Below, one piece after another: positions 2,906-45,684 of a stretch of 45,684 nt of DNA. The notes beneath the pieces are model-generated. The model saw only the letters and a list, made by a program, of their open reading frames with translations. It did no database searches and was not told the origin of the DNA. Numbering within the stretch: position 1 is the stretch's first letter; the number at the start of each line of letters is the position of its first letter. This stretch comes from Enterococcus lacertideformus (GTDB taxonomy: Bacteria > Bacillota > Bacilli > Lactobacillales > Enterococcaceae), in contig JADAKE010000009.1 of the NCBI GenBank assembly GCA_015680865.1, positions 1-45,684 on the forward strand. Reading direction: 5' to 3'. The position numbers and the translations under genes are program-made.

Positions 2906-3739
2906 ATGAATATTCAAACGGTGTTAGCAGAAATCCAATTAGAAGGATAAGTGATTCCAGTAAGTGGTGGTGATATCAATCAAAATTATCGAATCGAAGG
3001 ATATAATCAATCATATTTCTTAAAAATCCATCCTAATATTAGAAAGGCATATTTCGAAGCAGAAGTTGATGGTCTAAAGGTATTGTCTCCTTATGTTCGT
3101 GTTCCTGAGACTTATATGCTTGGTGAGTTGCAAGGTGGGGCGTATCTTTTGATGGAATGGATCAAACCAAGAAGAGGAAATCAAAAGGATTTGGCTGTTT
3201 CTTTGGTAAACATACATAAGATAACAGCACCACAATTTGGTTATTGAAAGGCTAACTATTTAGGTGTGCTTCCTCAAGTAAACCAAGTGGAAAAAGATTG
3301 GTGGTTGTTTTTCTTTAAAAACCGATTAGAAAATCAAGTCGCATTAGCCCAAAAGAACAATAGGTGGGATCAGTCACGTCAAGAAAAATGTCTCGCATTT
3401 AAACAATATGTGTTAAAAAACTTTGATGACCAAGAGATTGTACCTAGCCTCTTGTATGGAGACTTGTGGAGTGGCATTGTGTTCTTTGATCAGGAAGAAC
3501 AACCAGTCTTTATTGATCCAGCAATATCTTATGGGGATTGGGCACAAGATATCGCAATGAGTCTGCTTTTTGGTGGGTTTCGCCCAGAATTTTTAGAAAG
3601 TTATCAAACGATCTATCCTTTAGAAACAAAATGGGAAAAACGAGTGCCTATTTATCAATTATATTATTTTTTAGCCCATCTAAATATGTTCGGTGAAAGC
3701 TATGGTGCACAAGTGGATCAACTACTAGTTAAAAGATAA
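2906..3739 (+). pseudogene. Fructosamine-kinase/aminoglycoside-phosphotransferase-like gene with two in-frame stops
   Basis: Read through, this frame gives 277 residues like bacterial fructosamine-3-kinase-family proteins, which phosphorylate glycated amines. Visible features are SGGDINQNYRI at the N-terminus, FLKIHP for the ATP lysine, GDLWSG for the catalytic loop and YGDWAQDIAMSLLFGGF near the end. It has a good ribosome binding site (AAGGAGGAG) and an extended -10 (TGTTATAAT, 2856-2864), but TAA interrupts at 2948-2950 and TGA at 3245-3247, both in the same frame. The catalytic motif is also altered (YGDLWSGI instead of the usual HGDLWSGN). The next gene starts 15 bases later and was probably co-transcribed. 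Confidence 0.85.
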
Positions 3740-6534: not shown

Positions 6535-6548
6535 AAATGGGGCATTGG

Positions 6549-7389
6549 ATGATCAAAGCAATTTTTTTTGATATTGATGGTACATTAGTAAATGACCAAT
6601 CGAAAGCACTTGATTCAACCAAACGTGCGATTAGTTATGCCAGAAAAAATGGTATTTTGTGTGGTATCGCAACAGGTCGTAGTCCAGTCAAGATCAAAGA
6701 AGTGACGGATGATCTTGAATTAGATATGTATGTCGTTTATAATGGACAATTAGTTTTTACTAATGAACGTACGATTCTGGACCACCCATTCGAACAATCG
6801 GTTTTGACTAAAATCGTAAAATTCTCGGATAAAAATCATCGACAAGTCATTTTTGGTAGTCGAGACAAATTAGATGGATCGACAACGATGTTGCTAGGTC
6901 AGTCGATTTTTATCAAACGTTTGGTAAGTCTCCTTCCCAAGAAATTCCCAGTAAGGCTGATGAAAAAAGGATTACAGCTTTTCAGTCCTCATCGACAAAA
7001 GAAGCGATATGAAACATTAGCGATTCTTGATGAACCGATTTATCAATGTATCCTATTAAGCCAAGAATCAGAACAAGAAAAAACTGGAAGAAAGTTTTCC
7101 AGAATGCACATTTCAACGGTCCAATGCCTATACGGTAGATATCATTCCACACGGTGGATCAAAACTTTTAGGAATTTCAGCTTTTGCTAAAGATCAAGGC
7201 ATAGCGATGACTGAAATTATGGCATTTGGAGATCATTATAATGATATTGAAATGTTAAAAGGTGTGGGAATTGGGGTAGCAATGGGGAATGCTAAAAATG
7301 AAGTGAAACAAGTGGCTGATTTTGTAACAAACACAAATGAAAAAAATGGAATATATGAGGCATTAAAACAGTATGGCTTGATTTATTGA
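6549..7389 (+). pseudogene. Cof-type HAD phosphatase, frameshifted
   Basis: This gene encodes a Cof-type (HAD IIB) sugar-phosphate or nucleotide phosphatase. The first part has FFDIDGTLVND (nucleophile Asp) and GIATGRSP; the last part has MAFGDHYNDIEMLKGVGIGVAMGNA (motif IV). The two parts lie in different frames. The frame switches at a run of six A at 7078-7083; with five A the protein reads on through IIPHGGSKLLGISAFAKDQG to the stop at 7389, about 279 residues. The chosen start is ATG 6549, with GGGG six bases upstream. This is either a real slippage frameshift or a homopolymer error. Confidence 0.85.
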
Positions 7390-14594: not shown

Positions 14595-15164
14595 ATGAAA
14601 TGTGGTCGTAGACAAATGGATTATTTTGAACAAGTGAGTATCAAAGAAGAGATTCTTGCAGTAATGGAAAGTGCGGCAGATAAGGAGAGTACAGGCTATC
14701 AACAATTACTGGCGTTTTTGAAGAAAGTTCCTTATAAAGTGAATGTAATCTATGATCAACTACTGGAGAAAATAGAAGAGAAAAAACGTTTATCTGGCGG
14801 AGAGCTTCTAAACAGCGAAGATGATCAACAATCATTGCCAATATTGGAGAAAGTTATTAATACGTCGGATGAAGAATATCAACATATATTGGAAAAAATA
14901 AAAAATGAACGCTTAGTTGGGAACTTAAATGATGAAGACGTCAAAATACTCTTGAGAGCAATAAAAGAGCAAACACCATTCACAATGGAAGAAGTAGTGA
15001 GAAGCTGTCTTTATTTTCAGGAAATTTCTGATGAAGTAACAACACAGCAGAAACTTTTTGATCTTTTAGTTGAACCGCTTTTCAATCAAAGAAAACAGCT
15101 ATTTGTATTAGAAACAATGGGGGAGAGCTTCGGAGCTAAGAATTCTAGTAAAGAGCTGAAATAA
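14595..15164 (+). pseudogene. Fragment 1 of the large unknown gene (N-terminal, 189 aa)
   Basis: An acidic, helical 189-residue open frame starting at ATG 14595 (MKCGRRQMDYFEQ). It ends at TAA 15162-15164, but the same frame continues with protein-like sequence for about 70 more codons (LNIELRTGNIDLQYGIKSF...ELTDETAFKNGYREVVFDAYSAVF). That is the reason to call the stop premature. If translated today this would be the only product with a normal start. Confidence 0.5.
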
Positions 15165-15519
15165 TTAAATATAGAGCTGAGAACAGGTAATATAGATTTA
15201 CAGTATGGAATAAAGTCATTTGCCACGAAAAAACATATTTTAGTTAATATATTAGGTACGCTAGGAGAATACGAAAAATATAAGAAGAATGGAGCCGAAC
15301 TTACTGATGAGACTGCTTTTAAAAATGGTTATAGAGAAGTGGTATTTGATGCATATTCAGCTGTTTTTTTGATAAGGATGGTGAGAATATAAAGAAGCTC
15401 AAAGGTATTGTTTCTTTTTTGGCAAAAAAAAAAAAAGACTGCATAAATTTCTGCAAAGGACAGATTTATCAGAATTTGAAAAAAAAGCACATATATCTGT
15501 TGCAATATTTCAAAGTAAT

Positions 15520-16836
15520 TTGGATAAACGGCAGGAAGAAATAAATTACTATAAATCTAATAATAGAGATATAGAAAAATTGATTTCTGAAAAAGAGTTT
15601 GTTCATTTGATTGCTAAAGAAGTGGGAATAGATCATGCCATAGAACTTGATGAAGTGCTAAGAGGAAAAACGGAAGGAACAGCGGAGTTGATGTCGAAGA
15701 TTTATACTGATGCTCAATCCACGATTATTAAAGAATGGATCAAACAATTGGTCCAAGATTCTTTTGATAAAAAGAGGAGTTTACAGTTTTACAAAAAATG
15801 TCTCGAAAAAGAATTAACACCAGAAAACAGGGAAGAATTGAACCGTTTAAATGAAAAGTCCGAGATTCATGAATTCGAAAAATTATATCATTCATTAGAA
15901 TCGCTAAAGTTAAAGGAACAATTACATCCGATTGGCAGACTTATTTTTGATGAGGAAAAATGGGGAAAATTTGAAAATATTCAATTATACATACAAGAAT
16001 TAAAGGGTAAAAAAGTAAATATACCACTATCAGAAATGATGGAAAAAGATCTCGATGAAATAAAAAATCTTCGGATAATGAATGGACTTCGATCCATTGA
16101 CAGCAGGTTGGAGGATGTTACAATTATTCAGAAATTAAAGTTTGATGAAGTAGAAGGTGCTATATTTAAGTTGAAGGCACATTACCCTTATTGGGATGAA
16201 GATCTGCAGAAACAAGCAACCAAGCAAGTGAGCGTCCACTTAGAAGAAAGTGAACAAAGTCAATTGAACCAAACTTTTGAACAAAGTGAGATGATGACCA
16301 ATATTTTTGCGGTTAGTCCAAAACTAGGGCAAAAATTTCAGCAAACAGTAAAAGAAGCACAGGAAAAAATGTTAGTAAATAGAATAGATGAAGTGAAAAA
16401 AGAGTTAGAGAAACAGCATGTAGATTACTTGCTACCTGAAATAATGCAAACGATTGAACAACACTTAGTTAATGAAAAAACAAATTGTGAAACAATGGAT
16501 GACAAACAAAAAATACTTCAAGAATTAGAAAATACTCCAGAAAGTAGTAAACTCCTTGCAGGAATAAAAAAAGAATTAGCGCATAAAAAAATAAAACACA
16601 CAGGTGGTGAAGTCCTTTTATGGGTGAAAAAATTTTTAACCACTAATGAGAAAGATCAAGAAAAAGATTATCAATTTATTGTAAATAAAATTGAAAAAAT
16701 TTTAGAGGAGCAAATAAAAAGAACAGCTGGTAAAAATGACAAAGAAATAAGTCAATTTTTCGTAGAATTAAATTGGGCATTAGATAAAATAGCGGACGAG
16801 ATGAAAGAGACAGTTATTCAAGTACGTAAGATATAG
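15520..16836 (+). pseudogene. Fragment 2 of the large unknown gene (438 aa, coiled coil)
   Basis: The longest open piece, 438 residues, strongly helical and charged (KKELEKQHVDYLLPEIMQ, KILEEQIKRTAGKNDKE). It opens with TTG 15520 and has no ribosome binding site. The same frame extends upstream with good sequence (KRLHKFLQRTDLSEFEKKAHISVAIFQSN) back to the poly-A run, so it is an internal fragment rather than a gene of its own. Its function is unknown. Confidence 0.5.
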
Positions 16837-16850
16837 AAATAATCTTCTTA

Positions 16851-17776
16851 GTGAAGAAGAGCAATTTAAGAAGGAGCTTTATCAAAAAGAAATCATTCGG
16901 AATTTATATAAAGGCGGATCCTAAATTGAAGAGTGTCATTGAGGAATGTGCCAAACAAGTTCCTTTAACCTTTTATGATCGCCATGAGAGATTTAAAAAA
17001 GTGCGTAGAATGATTAAGCCTTTCGCAGAAGATTTGTGGGGTGGGCTAAAGGAAAAAATAACTAGTTTTATCAGTCAGGAGAGAATAGAACGCTCTAAGT
17101 TGAACCGTCTTGTGGATGAATTATTTACACAAAATAAACAGGTTGGAGCACAGGTTGTATGGTCATTGGTAGTATATACAGCTGGTGTACAAATTAATCT
17201 AATCCTAAATATACCGCACAGTATCGTTGGAAAGGTAGCGATCAGCAACAACAACGTTGCAAAGCGAAACAACTAGTAGAATATTGTAAGGAATTGAAAT
17301 GGTGCGCAGAGGATGCTTTATCAAAAGAGGCGCAATCACCAGAAAAGCGACCAGAATCGGAAGACAAGGCTGTTTTATCAGAAAAGGTGCAATTAGCAGA
17401 AAAGCAACCAGAATCGGAAGACAAGACTGTTTTATCAGAAAAGGCGCAATCACCAGAAAAGCAACCCAAATCAAAAGCAGTTGAAGAACCAAAAACAGAT
17501 GTGCAAACTAATATACTCACAGAGACACTTTTTAAAAAGCAAGAAATCGAACATGATTCAGCTATAGTTTGCTTAAACTCACCAAGCAACCGGACTGCTA
17601 ATAAAACGTACCGAACATTCGAAACAATTAAAGCAAATGAACAGCCTGCAAAGGAAGTTCCAGCTACTTCAGAAGATTTTCAAAGATTTTCAGAAAGAAA
17701 AAAGGTAGGTATGAAGCAAGCAACACAAGTTCCTAATTCAGTTAAAGAAAAAATTACAATATTTGAAAGAGTGTAA
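16851..17776 (+). pseudogene. Fragments 3 and 4 of the large unknown gene (C-terminal part and repeat tail)
   Basis: Open frames 16851-17276 and 17294-17776 overlap in meaning but not in frame. Fragment 3 has QVPLTFYDRHERFKKVRRM and FISQERIERSKLNRLVDELF. Fragment 4 continues with KYTAQYRWKGSDQQQQRC, then a repetitive LSEKxQ..PEKQPESEDK section, and ends ...VPNSVKEKITIFERV. The tail looks disordered. I recognise no domain. Confidence 0.45.
17318..17482 (+). repeat. 57-bp in-frame tandem repeat (about 2.9 copies)
   Basis: Units start at 17318, 17375 and 17432; the last is shortened. Each encodes 19 residues of the type LSEKAQSPEKQPESEDKTV. It lies in the C-terminal tail of the broken large gene. 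Confidence 0.85.
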
Positions 17777-18209: not shown

Positions 18210-20876
18210 ATGACGGAAGAAAAAAATCTATCAAAAAAATATAATCCGCAAGAAGTTGAAGCTGGGCGTTATCAAAAATGGTTGAAACAAGAACTATTTA
18301 AGCCAAGTGGCGACAAGAAAGCAAAACCATATTCCATTGTTATTCCACCGCCAAATGTCACAGGAAAACTTCATTTGGGCCATGCTTGGGATACAACTTT
18401 GCAAGACATGCTGATTCGGCAAAAACGGATGCAAGGTTTTGATACCCTTTGGTTACCTGGAATGGATCATGCAGGGATCGCTACACAGGCAAAAGTAGAA
18501 GAAAAACTTCGTCAACAAGGGATTTCACGTTATGACTTAGGACGTGAAAAATTTGTGGATCAAGTATGGGGATGGAAAGAAGAGTATGCAAGCCATATCC
18601 GTGAACAATGGGCAAAAATGGGTTTATCTTTAGATTATAGCCGTGAACGTTTTACACTAGATGATGGATTGTCAGAAGCAGTTCGTAAAGTATTCGTGAC
18701 ACTTTATGAAAAAGGCTTGATTTATCGTGGTGAATACATCATTAACTGGTATCCCCAAGCTCGTACAGCTTTGTCAGATATTGAAGTAAATCACAAAGAT
18801 ATCGAAGGTGCATTCTATCATATGAGCTATGAGCTTGCGGATGGTTCTGGCGTGGTTGAGATTGCAACAACTCGTCCAGAAACGATGCTAGGAGATACAG
18901 CGGTTGCCGTTCATCCAGAAGACGAGCGTTATCAGGAACTGATTGGTAAAAAAGTGATTTTACCTTTAGTGAATAAAGAAATCCCGATTATCGCTGATGA
19001 ATATGTAGATATAGAATTTGGGACCGGTGTAGTAAAAATCAATCCTGCTCACGATCCAAATGATTTTGAGGTGGGGAATCGTCATAGCTTGCCGCGTGTA
19101 AACGTGATGAATGATGACGGAACAATGAATGATTTAGCTGGAAAATACGCTGGAATGGATCGTTTTGCTGCACGTAAAGCTATCGTAGCTGATCTAAAAG
19201 AAATTGGTAGACTCATAAAAATCGAAAAAATGGTGCATAGTGTGGGGCATTCAGAACGTACTGGTGTAGTCTTTGAACCTCGTTTATCTACACAATGGTT
19301 TGTCAAAATGGCGCCATTAGCTGAGAAAGCTATGAAAAACCAAGAGACGGATGAAGCAGTTGAATTTTTCCCACCACGTTTTAATCAAACTTTTCTACGT
19401 TGGATGGAAAATGTTCATGATTGGGTTATCTCTCGTCAATTATGGTGGGGACACCAAATCCCTGCTTGGTACCATAAAGAAACGGGTGAAATGTACGTAG
19501 GGATGGAAGCCCCAGAAAATAGTGAAGAGTGGGCACAAGATCCAGATGTATTGGATACTTGGTTTAGTTCAGCTTTATGGCCTTTTTCAACGATGGGATG
19601 GCCAGATGAAAATAGTGCCGATTATCAACGTTATTTCCCAACAAGTACATTAGTGACTGGCTACGATATTATCTTTTTCTGGGTTAGTCGAATGATTTTC
19701 CAAAGCTTAGAATTTACAGATCGTCGTCCGTTTGAAAATGTCTTGATTCATGGGCTGATTCGGGACGAACAAGGACGTAAGATGAGTAAATCTCTTGGTA
19801 ACGGAATCGATCCGATGGAGGTTATCGAAAAATATGGAGCAGACGCGTTACGCTGGTTCTTATCCAATGGATCTGCTCCGGGACAAGACGTTCGTTTTAG
19901 TTATGAGAAGATGGACGCAGCATGGAATTTCATTAATAAAATTTGGAATGCTTCACGTTTTGTTCTTATAAACATCGAAGGCATGAGAGTAGAAGATATT
20001 GACTTAACGGGTGAAAAAACAGTAGCTGATCGTTGGATATTGACTCGTCTCAATGAAACAGTAACCAAAGTAACTGATTTATTTAATCATTTTGAGTTCG
20101 GAGAAGCAGGACGTCAACTGTACAACTTTATTTGGGATGATTTTTGTGACTGGTATATCGAAATGAGTAAAGAAATCTTGTATGGTGATGATGCCATTTC
20201 AAAACAAACGACAAAAAGTATTTTAGTGTATACATTGGACCAAATTTTACGTTTATTGCATCCGATCATGCCGTTTGTAACTGAAGAAATATGGCAACAT
20301 ATCCCACATCAAGGAGAGTCTTTAGTTGTTGCTGATTATCCAGTGGTTCACCTAGAATTCGATGATGAAACTGCTTCTAAAGGGATGGAAGTTTTAAAAG
20401 AATTGATTCGATCTGTACGCAATATTCGTTCCGAAGTAAATACACCATTATCAAAACCAATAACTTTATTGATCAAGACTAATGATTCTACAATCGATCA
20501 GTTCTTAACAGAGAATACCAGCTACATCGAACGTTTCTGTAATCCTGAAGAATTAACGATTTCAAGTGATATTGTGGCGCCTGATCTAGCTATGTCTGCT
20601 GTTTTAACTGGGGCGGAGATTTTCTTACCGTTGGCTGGATTAATCAATATTGAAGAAGAAATCCAACGTTTGGAAAAAGAATTAGCAAAATGGACCGAAG
20701 AAGTTAAACGAGTACAAGGAAAATTAGAAAATGAACGTTTTGTTTCTAAAGCACCAGCAGAGGTTGTTGCAGCAGAGCAAGCAAAAGAAAAAGATTACCT
20801 AGATAAACAAACGGCAGTAAAAGAACGAATCCGTAGTTTAAGAACGATCCTTAATCAAAAAAGTAACATGCGATAA
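18210..20876 (+). CDS. valS: Valyl-tRNA synthetase
   Basis: An 888-residue class Ia synthetase that charges tRNA-Val, with an editing domain that removes mischarged threonine. The HIGH-type motif is in [11 protein letters not shown] (about residue 50), the editing domain contains [19 protein letters not shown], and KMSKSLGNG is at about 526. A C-terminal coiled-coil arm ([34 protein letters not shown]) is present. The usual NWDP motif near residue 178 reads NWYP, a change at a normally conserved position whose effect I cannot judge. Expression is controlled by the T-box. ATG 18210 follows AAGGAGG. Confidence 0.97.
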
Positions 20877-27558: not shown

Positions 27559-29289
27559 GTGAAGTTGATGTGGCACTATACGATGCGCTACAAGAAATAT
27601 TTGATCCTAAATTTTATTTGCGTATTTGGATTTATTTTAATTGAGTTAGGTTTACCAACGATTTTAGCAAAAATGATTGATGTGGGTATCCGTAATAAAG
27701 ATTTTGATTATGTGAAACAACAAGGACTATTGATGATCGTGATCACTGTGATTGGAATCATTATGAATATTTTATTAGGGTATTTCGGTTCTAGGATCAC
27801 GACAAATATCGTAGCAGATATTCGAGATGACCTATTCAAAAAAATCCAAGGATATTCTCACCAAGAATATGAAACGCTAGGTGTAGCTTCTTTGATTACT
27901 CGTACAACCAATGATGCGTATCAAATCATGTTGTTTTTGCAAAATATCTTAAGAATTGGTTTCATGACACCCATGATGTTTGTAGTGAGTCTTTATATGG
28001 TGATGCGTACCAGTGTTTCACGGAGTTTTTATGTGATTGGAGCTTTACCTTTTTTGTTGCTGTCAGTAGTGGCAATTGCTAAATACTCTGAGCCTTTGTC
28101 AAAAAAACAACAAAAGAATTTAGATAAAATCAACAGTATTTTACGAGAAAATCTTTCTGGATTACGTGTAATCAGAGCATTTGTAAACGAAAAATTTGAA
28201 GAAAAGCGATTTGCTAAAGTAAACGACAACTATACGAAAAGCTCAAAAAGCTTATTTCGTTTGATGGCCGTTGCCCAACCAGGTTTTTACTTTTTATTTA
28301 ATATTGTCATGGTTTTGATCATATGGAGTGGGACAGTGCAAATTGATACCGGTTCGTTACAAGTAGGAGACTTAATCGCTTTTATTGAATATATTTTCCA
28401 TGCTTTGTTCTCATTTATGTTATTTGCAAGTGTGTTTATGATGTATCCTCGAGCAGAGGTTTCAGCTGGTCGGATCCAAGAAGCGCTGGATGCTTCACCA
28501 ACGATTACGGAAGATCCAAATGGCGTAGCTGAAACTAAAACAAAAGGTTACATTGAATTTAAAAATGTGACCTTTGCTTATCCAGGACACTCGCAAGAGC
28601 CAGTTATTCGCAATGTCAGTTTTACTGCTTCACCAGGTGAAACAGTTGCTTTTATCGGAAGTACAGGTAGTGGGAAATCTACTTTGATCCAATTGATTCC
28701 TCGCTTTTATGATGTCAGTGAAGGAGAAATTTTTATTGATGGTGTTGATGTCCGTGCGTATCGTTTAAGTAAATTAAGAGATAAGATTGGGTTTATTCCT
28801 CAAAAAGCTTTACTATTCACAGGAACGATCGCAGACAATCTAAGATATGGAAAAGAGGATGCATCACAAGAGGAAATGGAGCGAGCAGCAGAAATTGCTC
28901 AAGCAACAGATTTTATTTCAAAAAAAGCAGATGGTTACGACGAGCTTCTTTCAGAAGGCGGAACAAATTTCTCAGGGGGCCAAAAACAGCGCTTGGCGAT
29001 CGCTCGCGCAATTATCCGACGTCCTGAAATCTATATTTTTGATGATAGCTTTTCAGCACTTGATTACCAAACGGATGCAAAACTTCGTGCAAGATTGAAG
29101 AAAGAAACGACAGAATCAACCGTGTTGATTGTCGCCCAACGGGTGGGTACAATCATGCATGCAGATAAAATCATTGTTTTGAACGAAGGAGAAGTTGTAG
29201 GGATGGGAACGCATCGTGAATTACTAGAAAGTTGTCCGATCTACTATGATATTGCCGCTTCTCAATTGTCCAAGGAGGAATTAGCATGA
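27559..29289 (+). CDS. efrA: Heterodimeric ABC exporter subunit, EfrA-like
   Basis: A 576-residue half-transporter with six transmembrane helices in residues 1-300 and a nucleotide-binding domain with Walker A GSTGSGKST (about 367-375), signature SGGQKQR (about 472) and Walker B IYIFDDSFSALD. Walker B has D where catalytic sites have E. This is the usual degenerate site of heterodimeric exporters such as EfrAB and LmrCD, which expel drugs and dyes. The partner follows with a four-base overlap (ATGA). GTG 27559 has AAAGGAGA upstream. The efrA name rests on similarity of type and order, not on an alignment. Confidence 0.85.
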   Translation: MKLMWHYTMRYKKYLILNFICVFGFILIELGLPTILAKMIDVGIRNKDFDYVKQQGLLMIVITVIGIIMNILLGYFGSRITTNIVADIRDDLFKKIQGYSHQEYETLGVASLITRTTNDAYQIMLFLQNILRIGFMTPMMFVVSLYMVMRTSVSRSFYVIGALPFLLLSVVAIAKYSEPLSKKQQKNLDKINSILRENLSGLRVIRAFVNEKFEEKRFAKVNDNYTKSSKSLFRLMAVAQPGFYFLFNIVMVLIIWSGTVQIDTGSLQVGDLIAFIEYIFHALFSFMLFASVFMMYPRAEVSAGRIQEALDASPTITEDPNGVAETKTKGYIEFKNVTFAYPGHSQEPVIRNVSFTASPGETVAFIGSTGSGKSTLIQLIPRFYDVSEGEIFIDGVDVRAYRLSKLRDKIGFIPQKALLFTGTIADNLRYGKEDASQEEMERAAEIAQATDFISKKADGYDELLSEGGTNFSGGQKQRLAIARAIIRRPEIYIFDDSFSALDYQTDAKLRARLKKETTESTVLIVAQRVGTIMHADKIIVLNEGEVVGMGTHRELLESCPIYYDIAASQLSKEELA

Positions 29290-31052
29290 AACAAACACTT
29301 TCTTCTTTGAAACGACTGGCTCGATACATCAAGCCGTATCAGATAACCTTTTTATTCGTTATGCTATTTACTGTTTTTACTGTGATATTCAATGCAGCAT
29401 TGCCATATGTCGTGGGGTTGCCGACAACGGAAATTAGTCGGAACGTAGCAAATGGTGAGTCAATTAATTTTTCTTATATTTTTAATTGTTTAATTTGGAT
29501 TACCATCGTCGGTATTGGGTATTGTGCTTCTCAATTGCTTTCTGGTGTTTTGATGACAAATGTGGTCCAAAGTGCGATGCAAGATTTAAGAAGAGACATT
29601 GAAGAAAAAATCAATCGTTTACCTGTCTCTTATTTCGATAAAAATCAACAAGGAAATATTTTATCTCGGGTAACGAATGACGTTGATGCGGTTAGTGGTG
29701 CCCTTCAACAAGCATTTATTGGTGTAGTGAATGCAATTTTAGGAATTACGATGGCTGCTGCTATGATGTTTTACATCCAACCGCTCATGGCATTGATCTC
29801 AATGATCATGATACCTTCTTCCATTTGGATTTCCAAACGTGTAATCAATGCATCACAAAAATATTTTCAAGAAATGCAAAATTCATTAGGGGATTTAAAT
29901 GGTTACGTCCAAGAAAATATGACTGGTTTTAGTGTTTTAAAAGTTTATGGACGAGAACAGCAAACCTTTGAAGGCTTTAAAAAAGTCAACCATCGCCTAA
30001 AATATTTTGGGTTTAGAGCGGCGTTTATTTCAGGATTGATGATGCCTTTAGTTCAGCTAACTGCATATGCTACTTATATCGGTATGGCTGTTTTGGGAAG
30101 TTTTTATGTGATTACTGGCGTGATCGTTGTGGGGCAGTTACAAGCATTTATCCAATATATTTGGCAAATCAGCCAGCCAATGGGAAATATTACGCAATTG
30201 TCTTCTGTATTACAAAGCGCTTCTGCAGCGACTAGACGAGTATTTGAGATCTTAGATGAATCAGAAGAAAAAGAAAATAACGTAGATGTGGCTTTACCAT
30301 AGACGATTTTAGGGAACGTTTCCTTTGAACATGTCGATTTTGCTTATGATCCAAAAAAACCTTTGATACAAGATTTGAACTTTGAGGTAAAAGCAGGTCA
30401 AACAGTAGCTGTCGTAGGTCCGACTGGTGCAGGAAAAACGACATTGATCAACTTGTTGATGCGTTTTTATGATGCAAGTCATGGTGCGATAAAAATCGAT
30501 GGTATTGATACAAAAACAATGAGCCGTAGTGATGTACGTTCTTTATTTGGGATGGTTCTTCAAGATGCTTGGCTTTATGAAGGAACGATTGCTGATAATA
30601 TTCGTTTTGGAAAATTAGATGCAACTGATTATGAGGTAGTAGATGCAGCAAAAACTGCAAACGTGGATCACTTTATCCGCACGATGCCAGATGGTTATGA
30701 AATGGCGATCAATTCTGAAGGAGATAATATCTCATTAGGGCAAAAACAATTACTGACGATTGCCCGAGCAGTTGTTTCAGATCCTAAAATCTTGATACTT
30801 GATGAAGCAACTAGTTCTGTGGATACGCGTTTAGAAGCTTTGATCCAAAAAGCGATGGATCGTGTGATGGAAGGCCGGACAAGCTTCGTGATTGCCCATC
30901 GTTTATCAACAATTCGCGAAGCCGATCTGATTTTAGTCATGGATCAAGGACAAATTATCGAAAAAGGCACACATGAAAGTTTACTAGCTCAAGGCGGTTT
31001 TTATGAAAAATTATATAATAGTCAATTTGCAGAAGAAGTAGTTGAAGAATAA
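29286..31052 (+). pseudogene. efrB: Heterodimeric ABC exporter subunit, EfrB-like, with in-frame stop
   Basis: Read through, this is a 588-residue half-transporter. The membrane domain is intact to about residue 320, then TAG at 30300-30302 (codon 339) interrupts just before the ATPase domain. The same frame continues with Walker A GPTGAGKTT (about 377), signature ISLGQKQ and a canonical Walker B LILDEATSSVD. Because EfrA carries the degenerate site, this lost domain would hold the catalytic one, so the exporter is probably inactive. A downstream frame opens at TTG 30363 without a binding site and would give an isolated ATPase domain. A sequencing error is possible for a single base. Confidence 0.88.
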
Positions 31053-33622: not shown

Positions 33623-33955
33623 ATGGTTCAGACTTTTGCACGTCGTGGAAGTACTGGCATCCATCCAGAAGATATATGCCTGCGTTTTCCTAAGAGGTTC
33701 ACATAGGTGCGGATAGCCTTTAATTAAATGTTCATTTAAGTATGTCACAAAAGAAAGTACATTTAGCTGAAAAAACTTCTTGGATAGAAGGGGTTCATCC
33801 AAACTGCGATTGGTACTTTGAGAATTTAACATCCACGAAGACATTCCCCAAAGCAATCAGGTGTTGGATGGTAAATGATGACTCACAGATGATACGCTAT
33901 TTCAATCAATAACTCAATAATCACAGACATTCCCCCAAGAAAGCATTTTGGATAA
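33623..33955 (+). pseudogene. Glycerophosphodiester phosphodiesterase remnant
   Basis: Only the two ends of a GDPD gene remain. The 5' end reads MVQTFARRGSTGIHPE, with the usual catalytic HRG changed to RRG. After a frame change it continues AFS-stop-EVHIGADSL-stop-LNVHLS. The 3' part reads AEKTSWIEGVHPN, then AIRCWMVNDDSQMIRYFNQ, and after another shift SIITDIPPRKHFG. These match the N-terminal and C-terminal blocks of the family, with roughly 450 bases missing between. The intact enzyme hydrolyses glycerophosphodiesters to glycerol-3-phosphate. In enterococci, as I recall, such a gene precedes miaA, which fits. Confidence 0.75.
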
Positions 33956-33982
33956 AACAAACAATGAAAAAGTAGGATGATA

Positions 33983-34909: not shown

Positions 34910-36131
34910 AAAAGAAAAAGTGATCATTGTAGGCGTTGAAACACAACAGAATCAAAGGTATTTCACAGAGTCAATGGAATAATTAAGCAAGCTAACTAAT
35001 ACAGCTTCTGGGGAAGTGGTGTTTACGTTGACGCAAAAACGACCGCAAGTGGATCGTCAAACGATTATCGGTAAAGGTAAGCTACAAGAATTGATCCAAC
35101 AAGCAGATGCTCATGAAGCAGATCTGATTATCTTTAACCATGAAATGTCCCCGCAGCAGAGTCAGCTAGTCTCAGAAGCAATAGGAATCCCCATCATTGA
35201 TCGAGTTCAGTTGATTTTAGATATTTTTGCCATGAGAGCACGTTCTAAAGAAGGAAAATTGCAGGTAGAGCTAGCGCAATTAGAGTATCTTTTGCCACGC
35301 TTAGCTGGACAAGGAAAATCATTGTCTCGCTTAGGTGGTGGGATCGGGACGAGAGGTCCTGGGGAAACCAAACTGGAAACGGATCGACGTCATATACGTA
35401 ATAAAATATTAGGGGTAAAACGTGAATTGAAGGCTGTGGAAGCGCATCGAGCGAGAAATCGTCAAAAAAGACAGTCCAGTGAAATCTTTCAGATTGGTTT
35501 GGTCTGTTATACAAATGCGGGGAAGTCAACCATTCTTAATTTACTTACACAAGCGGATACGTATTCTAAAGATCAGTTATTTGCTACCTTGGATCCATTA
35601 ACAAAGAAATGGCGGTTTGCAGAAGGGTTTGAAATCACCGTCACCGATACAGTGGGATTTATTCAAGATCTCCCAACGCAATTAATCGATGCGTTCCATT
35701 CGACACTGGAAGAGAGTCAATCAATGGACCTATTGTTACATGTGGTTGATGCAAGTTCGCCAGATCTTATTTTACAAGAGCAGACTGTATTACAGTTGAT
35801 GACGGAACTAAAGATGGAAGAGATGCCTGTTCTAACAGTGTATAACAAAGCAGACCAAATTGATCCGGCCTTGTTTACACCTTCGCTCTTTCCCAATGTA
35901 TTGATTTCTGCGCAAAATACTGATGGAAAAGATAAGCTAGTACAAGTAATCAAACAACAGTTATTGGAATTGATGGAGCCGTACACTTTATTTGTGCCAA
36001 GTCGGGAGGGTCAAATGTTAAGTGCTTTACGAAGACAAACGTTCGTATTGGAAGAGCATTTTGTAGAAGAAAAAAATGGGTATGATGTAAAGGGATTTGC
36101 AAAGCCTACTTCTAAATGGCTGAAAAATTAA
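34899..36131 (+). pseudogene. hflX: GTPase HflX with early stop and altered P-loop
   Basis: Read through, 410 residues of HflX, a ribosome-associated GTPase that splits stalled ribosomes after heat stress. TAA at 34980-34982 is codon 28 (GAA-TAA, where GAA-GAA is likely). The frame then continues in HflX style: TQKRPQVDRQTIIGKGKL, the glycine-rich LGGGIGTRGPGETKLE, LFATLDPLTKKW, DTVGFIQDLP. The first P-loop glycine is also changed: VCYTNAGKST instead of VGYTNAGKST (TGT at 35505-35507). Re-initiation at GTG 35016, just after GGGGAAG, could give 371 residues lacking the N-terminus, but the P-loop change would still apply. Confidence 0.88.
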
Positions 36132-37001: not shown

Positions 37002-38249
37002 ATGGTAAAGAAACAGATAACAGGTGACGAAATTAAACGAATCATTGAAGAAGAGAACGTTCGATTTTTAAGATTGATGTTTACAGATATCTTAGGAACA
37101 ATTAAAAATGTTGAAGTACCCGTTAGTCAAATTGATAAAGTACTTGAAAACAAAATGATGTTTGATGGTTCGTCAATTGAAGGATTTGTTCGTATTGAAG
37201 AAAGTGACATGTATTTGTATCCTGATCTTTCAACATGGATGATCTTCCCCTGGGAAAGTGACCATGGCAAAGTTGCTCGTTTGATTTGTGATATTTACAA
37301 TCCAGATGGCACACCATTTGCCGGAGACCCACGTGGAAATTTAAAACGCATATTAAAAGATATGCGGGATCTTGGCTTCACTTCTTTAAATTTAGGACCA
37401 GAACCAGAATTTTTCTTATTTAAATTAATTGTGTTAGAATTGGAAAGTCTGGGATTTGAAGTAGAAGCTTCTCATCATGAAGTAGCTCCAGGGCAACATG
37501 AAATTGACTTTAAATATGCAGATGTTGTGGATGCTTGTGATAATATCCAAACATTTAAATTAGTTGTTAAAACAATTGCCCGTAAGCACGGTTTACATGC
37601 AACCTTCATGCCGAAACCGCTATTTGGAATCAATGGTTCAGGGATGCATTGCAATATGTCATTATTCAATGAAGAAGGAAATGTCTTTTATGATAAATAC
37701 GGGGCGTTGGAACTTAGTAAAACTGCTTATCATTTCTTAGGTGGCTTGCTGAAGCATGCACGTGCTTATACGGCAGTATGTAACCCAACTGTAAATTCTT
37801 ATAAACGCTTAGTTCCAGGATATGAAGCACCTGTATATGTTGCTTGGAGTGGTCGAAACCGTTCGCCATTAGTACGTGTACCAGAATCTCGCGGATTGTC
37901 TACACGTCTAGAATTGCGCTCTGTTGACCCATCTGCTAACCCATATTTAGCAATGGCTGTATTGTTACAAGCTGGTTTGTACGGCATCCGTAATGAGATC
38001 ACACCTCCAGCTGCTGTAGATCGTAATATTTATGTGATGAATGAAGAAGAGCGAGAAGAAGCAAATATCCAAGATCTACCATCAACTATTCACAATGCAA
38101 TCAAAGAATTAAGAAAAGATGAAGTAATGATCGATGCTCTAGGAACGCATATTTTCTCTAATTTTGTCGAAGCGAAACTTTTAGAATGGGCAGCTTTCAG
38201 ACAAACCGTTTCTGAATGGGAAAGAGAACAATACTTAGAATTATACTAG
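37002..38249 (+). CDS. glnA: Glutamine synthetase with an internal in-frame deletion
   Basis: A GlnA of the low-GC Gram-positive type, 415 residues instead of about 444. Sequence on both sides is normal: [32 protein letters not shown], then [28 protein letters not shown]. Between FKL and IVLELE (junction 37427/37428) family members carry about 31 more residues, including GGYFDLAPTD. That stretch is the loop whose tyrosine (Tyr179 in the Salmonella enzyme) closes over the ammonium/glutamate site. The frame is kept, so a protein may be made, but activity is doubtful. Metal and ATP motifs ([20 protein letters not shown]) remain. AGAGGGAT precedes ATG 37002. It is co-transcribed with glnR. Confidence 0.93.
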
Positions 38250-41959: not shown

Positions 41960-43234
41960 ATGAAAAAAATCGTAATTGAAGGAAATCGTGCATTAACTGG
42001 TGAAGTAATAATCAGTGGAGCTAAAAATAGTGCAGTCGCTTTGATACCAGCAGCTATTTTAGCAGATTCTCCGGTTATTTTAGAAGGCGTACCTGATATT
42101 CAGGATGTTCATTCGTTAATTGAAATTTTAGAGATCATGGGCGCAAAAGTCCATTTTTCAGAAAATGTCTTAGAAATTGATCCACGTGAAATTGTCTCTA
42201 TCCCAATGCCAAGTGGCAAAATCAATAGTTTGCGTGCGTCTTATTATTTTATGGGCACGTTACTTGGAAAATTTGGTGAAGCAGTGGTAGGGCTACCTGG
42301 TGGGTGCTATTTAGGCCCACGACCAATTGATTTACATGTAAAGGGGTTTGAAGCGTTGGGCGCCTCTGTTAATAATGAGCATGGTGCGATGTATTTGCGT
42401 ACTGAAAATCATCCATTACAAGGTAATCGAATTTTCATGGATGTTGTCTCAGTCGGTGCGACGATTAATATCATGCTGGCAGCAGTGAAGGCAAAAGGAC
42501 AGACTGTGATAGAAAATGCTGCTAGAGAACCAGAAATCATTGATGTCGCTACTTTATTGAACAATATGGGGGCAAAAGTGCGAGGAGCAGGTACCGATGT
42601 AATCCGAATTGATGGTGTGGAAAAACTTCATGGCTGTCGTCATTTTATGATACCAGATCGGATTGAAGCTGGAACGTATCTGGTATTAGCTGCCGTCGCT
42701 GGAAATGGGATCAAGATTAAAAATGTTATCTATGAACATTTAGAAAGTTTTATTGCAAAGCTACAAGAAATAGGCGTAAATATGACCATTAGAGAAGATG
42801 AAATTGAAGTATTTCCTTCATCAAAAAATTTAAAAGCAGTAAACGTCATGACTTATCCGTATCCTGGGTTTGCAACGGATTTACAGCAACCACTCACACC
42901 TTTGTTACTTATGACGCATGGGACAGCTGAAATCGTTGATACGATTTATGCAAAACGTGTTAATCACGTGCCAGAACTAGCACGCATGGGTGCAGATATC
43001 TCAGTTGAGGGGAATTTGATTATCGCTAATGGCCCAAATAAACTTCATGGAACAGAAGTGGTGGCTTCTGATCTTAGAGCTGGAGCTTGTTTGGTAATTG
43101 CTGGATTACTTGCCGAAGGAACCACAACCATTTATAATGTGGAATATATTTTACGTGGTTATGATCATATTATCGAGAAGTTGACAGCATTAGGAGCTAA
43201 AATTCAAATGGTGGAGGAAGTGGAAGCTGAATGA
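41960..43234 (+). CDS. murA: UDP-N-acetylglucosamine 1-carboxyvinyltransferase (MurAB/MurZ type)
   Basis: A 424-residue enzyme that transfers enolpyruvate to UDP-GlcNAc, the first committed step of peptidoglycan synthesis. The catalytic, fosfomycin-reactive cysteine is present in [14 protein letters not shown] (Cys116, Cys115 in E. coli numbering), so fosfomycin sensitivity is expected. [12 protein letters not shown] and [14 protein letters not shown] are also present. Low-GC Gram-positives carry two MurA paralogs; the location between fba and rho marks this as the MurAB/MurZ copy. It overlaps rho by four bases. Confidence 0.95.
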
Positions 43235-44526
43235 GTGATTATTTAACGATGGCAGAACTGGAAAACAAAACGTTAAAAGAAGTTTACAGTTATGCAAAAG
43301 AATTCAAAATTCCTTATTATAGTAAAATGAATAAAAAGGAACTATCCTTAGCAGTTATTCGAGCTCAAGCAGAAAAACAAGGATTCTACTATATGGAAGG
43401 AATTTTAGATATTGTCGGACAAGATGGGTACGGTTTTTTACGTCCTATCAACTATGGTCCTAGTGTGGAAGATATCTATATCTCTGCTTCACAAATCAGA
43501 CGTTTCAGTTTACGAAATGGTGATAAAGTTGCAGGGAAAGCACGTCCGCCAAAAGAATCAGAACGTTATTATGGTTTAATGCACGTTGAAAGCGTGAATG
43601 GCAAAGATCCAGAAGAAGCAAAAGAACGTCCACATTTTCCAGCGTTGACGCCTCTTTATCCACAAGAACAACTTCGTTTAGAAACAACCGCTCAACGACT
43701 TTCCACAAGAATGATCGATATTTTCTCTCCTGTTGGGTTTGGTCAGCGTGGATTGATTGTCGCGCCACCAAAAGCAGGAGAAACTTCTGTATTGAAGGAA
43801 ATCGCAAATGGTATCACTGAAAATCATCCAGATGTTGAACTGATTGTTTTGTTGATTGATGAACGTCCAGAAGAAGTAACTGATTTAGAACGTAGCGTTA
43901 AAGGAGATGTAGTCTCATCAACCTTTGATTTACAGCCACAAAACCATACACGTGTTTCTGAGTTAGTCTTAGAAAGAGCTATGCGCTTAGTCGAAGACAA
44001 AAGAGATGTAGTCATCTTAATGGATAGCATCACTCGATTAGCTAGAGCCTATAATTTAGTGGTACCACCAAGTGGTCGGACATTAAGCGGAGGGATTGAT
44101 CCAGCAGCTCTTTATAAACCTAAAAAATTCTTCGGTGCGGCGAGAAACATCGAAGAAGGAGGCAGTATAACGATCCTAGCTACCGCCTTAGTCGATACAG
44201 GTAGTCGTATGGACGATGTGATCTATGAAGAATTCAAAGGTACTGGTAATTTAGAATTACAGTTGTCTCGCGAACTTGCTGAGCGTCGGATTTTCCCGGC
44301 CATTGATATCAAAAAATCTGGAACTCGAAAAGAAGAGTTGCTGATGGCTGAAGAGCAATTAGATGAGATTTGGAAACTGAGAAAAAATATGACTGGAGAC
44401 TCTTTGGAGTATACGGAACAATTGATCCGATTTTTGCGAAAAACCAGAAATAATCAGCAATTTTTCAAAGAATTTCAAGATGTATCATTTAGTAAAAAAA
44501 ATCAAACCAGAAATCTAAAAAGATAA
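43231..44526 (+). CDS. rho: Transcription termination factor Rho with a mutated Walker A lysine
   Basis: A 431-residue Rho, the hexameric RNA-dependent ATPase helicase that ends transcription. The N-terminal region and RNA-binding cold-shock-like domain ([19 protein letters not shown]) are present, as are [26 protein letters not shown], and [21 protein letters not shown]. The Walker A motif reads APPKAGETS, where all Rho proteins I know have APPKAGKT. Codon 184 (43780-43782) is GAA instead of a lysine codon. This lysine binds the ATP phosphates, so ATPase activity should be lost. The frame is otherwise intact and of normal length. Start ATG 43231 overlaps murA. Confidence 0.95.
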
Positions 44527-44555: not shown

Positions 44556-44624
44556 GTTACTGTTGTATATCGACAAATCAACTCTGGTTCAGCAAATGGA
44601 TCAGGGCAAAGGAGCGAAAAAAGC

Positions 44625-44947: not shown

Positions 44948-45250
44948 GCGTTTTGTCCATACCAATTGATTCTGGATATTCTTTGGAATCATCCATGAAA
45001 TCCGCAAAATGATTTGCCGTTTCTTCTGTTTGTCTTCTTGTGACGTGGCGTAGATATCCATATAGTGGTTTTAATATCTGTGTGACCTAACCGAACTTGA
45101 ACTTCTTTGAGCGATGCACGGGATTCAAAAGACTACAATGCGTGTGCCGAAAGTTGTGAGGTGTACGTTTTAAGTTTAATGATTTTCAAGTTGTGATTAA
45201 CATAGTCTAAATAAAGCGTTTTATTTTCTTCTGACGAAAATAAAAGTTGT
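44948..45250 (-). pseudogene. Phage-type tyrosine integrase, C-terminal remnant
   Basis: On the minus strand, pieces in shifting frames read ENKTLYLDYVNHNLKIIKLKRTPHNFRHTHC, then ESRASLKEVQVRLGHTDIKTT, then MDIYA, then VTRRQTEETANHFADFMD. These are the catalytic blocks of Lactobacillales phage integrases (R in FRHTH, H in LGHTD, Y in DIY). At least three frameshifts are needed and the N-terminal two thirds is gone. It marks a former prophage or island end next to rpmE2. It abuts the rpmE2 terminator, and its true 3' end is unclear. Confidence 0.8.
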
Positions 45251-45473: not shown

Positions 45474-45684
45474 ATGGAAAAAATTACATCTAACACAGCA
45501 GTAGCTAATAACGCGATTATAGCAGTTAAATCTGTCACGATTAGTAAATGTACACAGATTCCTGTTGGAAAAAGTACGGTTTCAGGATTGAAAACAGGCG
45601 TTTCTGTGAGCAATCAATTAATATCTGATTTGGAACAATTGGTTACTTGTATGAAAGATCAAAGTGATAGGTTTCCTAAGTTGG
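45474..45684 (+). CDS. Probable type VII secretion substrate, TIGR04197-like (partial)
   Basis: The gene starts at ATG 45474 after GGGAGG and runs off the window; 70 residues are visible. MEKITSNTAVANNAIIAVKS, then the TVSGLKTGVSVSNQL region, match the style of the small helical TIGR04197 (SACOL2603-type) effectors found with type VII secretion genes and LXG toxins in Firmicutes. Two cysteines are unusual for such proteins. The assignment rests on pattern memory from a partial protein. The 45251-45473 spacer is AT-rich and shows no other gene. Confidence 0.5.
   Translation, partial: MEKITSNTAVANNAIIAVKSVTISKCTQIPVGKSTVSGLKTGVSVSNQLISDLEQLVTCMKDQSDRFPKL

Follow-up and report, generated by a model that had tools for sequence, protein, structure and literature searches.

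The question raised by this locus is whether a rho gene that looks intact to annotation encodes an active transcription termination factor. The gene (43231..44526, forward strand) lies in the window, by which we mean the whole 45,684-base contig JADAKE010000009.1 of Enterococcus lacertideformus, and encodes a Rho of 431 amino acids, full length and without an internal stop. Its Walker A (P-loop) stretch is translated as PPKAGETS (residues 179-186; 43765..43788, forward strand), and codon 184 (43780..43782, forward strand), which translation and alignment to homologues place at the Walker A lysine position, is GAA (Glu). A sequence-only reading of the same DNA had described the frame, the motif and the codon correctly; the coordinates it gave for the motif, 43771..43788, fall inside PPKAGETS and span only the last six of its eight codons. 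We propose that K184E is a real and recent mutation that abolishes the ATPase activity of Rho in a lineage of Enterococcus undergoing gene loss, an explanation towards which we lean without great confidence. If it is real, a single missense change switches rho off while annotation still calls the gene intact.

A Rho protein with glutamate in the P-loop

The encoded protein is a member of the Rho sequence family, above the curated cut-offs: over the whole protein it scores 647.6 bits against the NCBIfam profile NF006886 (cut-off 315) and 636.4 bits against TIGR00767 (cut-off 509.45), and Pfam finds the domains of Rho in order, namely Rho_N (PF07498, residues 9-51), Rho_RNA_bind (PF07497, 55-128) and ATP-synt_ab, the RecA-type ATPase (PF00006, 159-363). 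The E. coli Rho structures 3ice, 1pv4 and 8q3q align to the window Rho over residues 4-414, and residue 184 of the window falls on native residue 184 in the E. coli chains once an apparent three-residue tag offset is allowed for. The equivalents of E. coli K181, T185, E211, R212, D265, R353 and R366 are identical in the two proteins, whereas Lys184 is replaced by glutamate in the window, so that the GKT expected in the Walker A motif of an active Rho is GET. The catalytic glutamate (E211), the arginine valve (R212), the Walker B aspartate (D265) and the arginine finger (R366) are thus all present, the roles of the last three being those that we take them to have from their residue numbers. E211 is named as the catalytic glutamate of Rho in a passage of PMC4499133, which also gives lysine or arginine as usual at position 326, where the E. 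coli protein has lysine and the window Rho arginine.

The window Rho has the same length as the Rho of E. lactis and of 14 other genomes of the genus, with 92-97% protein identity to all 15; every one of them carries the Walker A lysine (codon AAA in 12 and AAG in 3), and the window carries glutamate. Besides residue 184, the window Rho has four residues absent from these 15 genomes, I313 (L in the others), A373, D378 (E) and R406 (K), all of them mild changes and A373 at a variable site. Conservation was also assessed in an alignment of 200 rows, made of the best 120 of 7998 scored proteins and the best 80 genome loci retained from a scan, in which the codon-184 column holds lysine in 200 of 200 rows. 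APPKAGKT is present in 120 of the 120 best proteins; among the 80 best loci the lysine motif is found directly in 74, and in the other six a neighbouring residue is altered and the lysine kept. Gaps aside, 128 columns of this alignment are invariant, and the window breaks one, residue 184 alone.

We also scanned 395 genomes of the order for exact APPKAG followed by a codon not starting with A and then T, a pattern that requires exact flanks, and it returned no Rho. Its four matches, all APPKAGQT, were rejected since by translation the frame reads as lactate-dehydrogenase-like. The corresponding pattern allowing lysine or glutamate matched in 231 of the 395 genomes, with AAA or AAG among the matches listed.

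Expected activity of the K184E protein

In the part of PMC8828861 that deals with it, Lys184 of E. coli Rho is the Walker A lysine and changes conformation upon bicyclomycin binding; the relevant text of PMC11829017, on a Rho structure with a guanosine-type nucleotide, has Gly183 and Lys184 stabilising the nucleotide. Our literature search on K184 and on Walker A changes in Rho yielded no assay of K184E Rho, and a search for Walker A lysine-to-glutamate changes in general gave nothing. Substitutions of K181 and K184 in E. coli Rho are reportedly the subject of earlier work. Within the literature retrieved on Walker A changes in Rho, on its dispensability or absence, on Enterococcus Rho and on pseudogenes of E. 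villorum and E. ratti, we recognised no report of a Rho with a Walker A glutamate or of Rho decay in Enterococcus.

By analogy with P-loop enzymes in general, K184E would be predicted to cost the ATPase activity. We envisage that a genuine missense change arose recently in the rho gene of a lineage losing genes by decay. The protein would still fold, because everything else that is deeply conserved in Rho is retained; the negative side chain, placed at the point of contact between Walker A lysine and nucleotide, would prevent productive ATP binding or hydrolysis, and the hexamer could then bind RNA at most, with neither translocation nor termination. Such a loss would be tolerated, given that at least some Bacilli can do without Rho. 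Observed are the codon, its uniqueness among the homologues compared, the otherwise intact protein and the broken neighbouring genes; we infer each of the four elements of this scheme, that the base is correct, the ATPase lost, the allele fixed and the loss tolerated. The earlier suggestion that a gene which looks intact to annotation may encode an inactive Rho stands as the best reading, because the protein passes the Rho cut-offs easily while an invariant residue of the ATP site is missing; the gene is thus intact to annotation and its product probably inactive. For a dominant-negative hexamer, which the sequence-only reading had raised as another possibility, we found nothing in support.

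That reading had also held that Rho is dispensable in several Firmicutes and its loss tolerable, which fits published work: B. subtilis strains with a rho deletion have been grown and assayed (PMC5540618), and several lineages of Bacilli have lost rho (PMC13323073).

Disrupted genes on the same contig

The rho gene shares its contig with several broken genes. In glnA (37002..38249, forward strand) an in-frame internal deletion of 93 bases, with its junction at 37427/37428, removes 31 residues relative to the relatives and also appears as a gap against a solved glutamine synthetase; the gene carries two more radical private changes, D327Y and R393L, and judging from its sequence the glutamine synthetase of the window is probably inactive. 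A fructosamine-kinase-like pseudogene (2906..3739, forward strand; Pfam PF03881 on the piece 3266-3736) has two in-frame stops, and one of the window's lesions is a pseudogene with just 65-77% identity to relatives. Comparison with relatives further revealed a one-base frameshift in an A run of a HAD-type hydrolase gene (6537..7389, forward strand) and an in-frame stop at 30300 in the second ABC transporter gene (29286..31052, forward strand). An early in-frame stop at 34980 interrupts hflX (34920..36131, forward strand; Pfam domains on 34983-36128); a later start could still yield most of the protein, and the gene is flagged against the reference genomes G012 and G001 and not in the stricter count against G006, a near relative. 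A truncated gene also lies before miaA (33724-33972).

Counting as a lesion any stop, frameshift or gap of at least 15 residues, we found 5 lesions in the 29 window genes compared when G012 served as reference, versus 5 in 338 genes summed over 14 relatives (Fisher p = 0.0004). The five lesions of the relatives fall one each in G003, G004, G006, G007 and G015, four of the five in one ORF. The count for the window becomes 4 lesions in 29 genes when G006 is the reference and 6 in 29 when it is G001; one of the six, in an ORF flagged in nine relatives also, we take for an artefact caused by the long start of the reference. On this one 45-kb contig, then, the window has the excess of disrupted genes over close relatives that marks a genome in decay. 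Because several neighbouring genes on the contig are broken, a context that the sequence-only reading had missed, a passive loss of Rho becomes the more likely course.

Substitution rates and purine content

At columns where all other genomes agree, we counted 102 non-synonymous and 92 synonymous private changes for the window (ratio 1.11) versus 53 and 92 (0.58) for G006. The counts are 184 versus 150 (1.23) in G009, 102 versus 114 in G015 and 326 versus 174 in G004. With G012 or G006 as reference G009 is free of lesions, and with G001 it has one that is shared and artefact-like; since its ratio reaches 1.23 without lesions, the ratio alone is no proof of decay. Of the 71 private changes in the window, 8 are radical (BLOSUM62 score of -2 or lower), compared with 29 of 565 for the 15 relatives together (p = 0.054), and against G006, G009, G015 and G004 alone the difference has p = 0.04, a weak excess; G006, with 3 of 34, is much like the window, and the other three have 5 of 141 (G009), 3 of 62 (G015) and 9 of 221 (G004). 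The rates fit a lineage under somewhat weaker selection and stop short of proof, the ratios of G009 and G004 being higher without such lesions. As a separate observation, valS (18210-20876), an essential gene, carries three radical private changes, D181Y, I194N and P715L, where 11 relatives show no variation.

A test for relaxed selection on the rho gene gave no significant result (4 of the 71 private changes, compared with 15 of 565 for the relatives; p = 0.15). Since rho is not detectably relaxed, selection held the gene until very recently, or still does.

Purine content offers a view on timing. Coding purine bias is weaker in Rho-less Bacilli, according to the portion of PMC13323073 that treats it; in those lineages the gene is absent, whereas the window has the gene and a bias within the range of its relatives, and they are without Rho activity, as the window lineage would be. 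Over 25 shared genes (8773 codons) the coding purine fraction is 0.5518 in the window and 0.5470-0.5521 in nine relatives; at third positions the values are 0.5151 and 0.5068-0.5237, and at four-fold sites 0.5066, near the low end, and 0.5033-0.5293. Private four-fold changes from purine to pyrimidine outnumber the reverse by 25 to 17 in the window and by 34 to 17 in G006. The weakened bias that marks Rho-less Bacilli is accordingly absent from the window, a comparison to which 45 kb and a recent loss lend little power. An old loss of Rho is rejected because purine content at all, third and four-fold positions lies within the range of the nine relatives, and any loss must be recent. If the mutation is real, a lineage of Bacilli has been caught at the start of Rho loss, before its purine bias relaxes, and the link that has been proposed to exist between Rho and the purine bias of coding strands could be traced through time.

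Sequence error and selected change as alternatives

The chief rival, which we regard as possible though less probable, is that the glutamate codon arose by an error of sequencing or assembly, or stands for a minority allele caught in the consensus, and that the organism's Rho has the lysine and is normal. A single base is involved, and one break in 128 invariant columns is what one stray base would give; that rho is otherwise constrained and the purine bias retained fits as well. The other end of the contig also contains oddities: at positions that are uniform among ten copies from seven genomes of relatives, the tail of the 23S rRNA gene (1-358) carries one inserted base and two substitutions, and the 5S rRNA gene (451-564) lacks two bases and carries one substitution. 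Assembly faults are common where a contig ends inside rRNA, and the rRNA oddities suggest either a decayed operon or errors near that end; for K184E, too, a technical origin thus has to be reckoned with. Against an error, the distance from codon 184 to the nearer end of the contig is about 1.9 kb, and the comparison of 29 window genes flagged a single frameshift, which shows that indel errors do not abound in the inner contig. In 4 of 26 genes (clpP, fba, murA and rpmE2, a set chosen after the fact, in which murA has three private non-synonymous changes at other sites) there are no private amino-acid changes at sites invariant in the relatives, which also tells against this rival. As to the broken neighbours, neither the clean 93-base deletion nor the 65-77% identical pseudogene could be produced by a base-call error.

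It is unlikely, in our judgement, that K184E was selected, giving a Rho that is weakened or ATP-dead yet able to bind RNA and form hexamers, and acting as a hypomorph or an interfering subunit and changing antisense and read-through transcription to the advantage of the cell. In its favour, the protein is full length and otherwise conserved, and evolution experiments with E. coli have repeatedly yielded beneficial mutations in rho (PMC7863352); however, the residues named in the accessible text of that source (37, 87, 88, 218, 278 and 293) are all outside the P-loop. Reversing the charge of the Walker A lysine would moreover be expected to give a null rather than a hypomorph, and the change did not recur in the 395 genomes of the order with the pattern used. 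More doubtful still is that a natural lineage has fixed an ATP-dead Rho under otherwise purifying selection, as an RNA-binding ring without motor function; were it true, nature would have separated the RNA binding of Rho from its ATPase. That the substitution is to be explained by an altered bicyclomycin pocket is hardly credible: the conformational change of E. coli Lys184 on drug binding (PMC8828861, in the part cited above) would speak for it, but glutamate should cost ATP binding, and nothing seen in the window points to the drug. We return, then, to a recent inactivating mutation as the preferred explanation; if it is real, the presence of a rho gene in bacterial surveys need not equal Rho activity.

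Genomic context and related sequences

The window holds the 3' end of the 23S rRNA gene, the 5S rRNA gene and tRNA-Asn, and its gene order is largely common to three genomes from the genus to which E. lactis belongs, G006, G005 and G009. Directly upstream of rho, with a 4-base overlap in the ORF list, lies an intact murA-type gene (41960..43234, forward strand), which aligns to the G006 and G009 orthologues over reference residues 1-416 with no stops. Downstream are an L31-Firmicutes leader RNA (44582..44614, forward strand; Rfam RF03156, 35.6 bits, gathering threshold 33.3) and, after it, an rpmE-type L31 gene (44625-44888), an ORF identical to that of G009 over 87 amino acids; the order murA-rho-L31 is the same in G006 and G009. 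Just past the L31 gene, minus-strand remnants (44950-45250) are spread over several frames and appear to resemble the C-terminus of a tyrosine recombinase. The start of an ORF at 45474-45684 is cut off by the contig end, and Pfam gives no match on the 70 residues present. Between rex and valS, a block at 14595-17776 holds four ORFs, three without a Pfam match and one with a sub-threshold ELMO_ARM match, and is left uncovered where G006, G005 and G009 align, falling between their blocks.

Among the loci compared, the nearest rho has 85.4% DNA identity to that of the window; the folC matches listed, other than the window's own, have at most 85% identity, E. villorum being among those with a name, and the genomes compared all belong to other species. 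A phage, plasmid or viral origin of rho was considered and rejected: the plasmid collection contained nothing near to rho, and of three stretches in viral contigs that fit the search pattern none encodes a relative. Two short unannotated records labelled 'Listeria phage' (OR847440.1 and OR848620.1) contain a full-length rho match with 83.7% identity and are probably host DNA.
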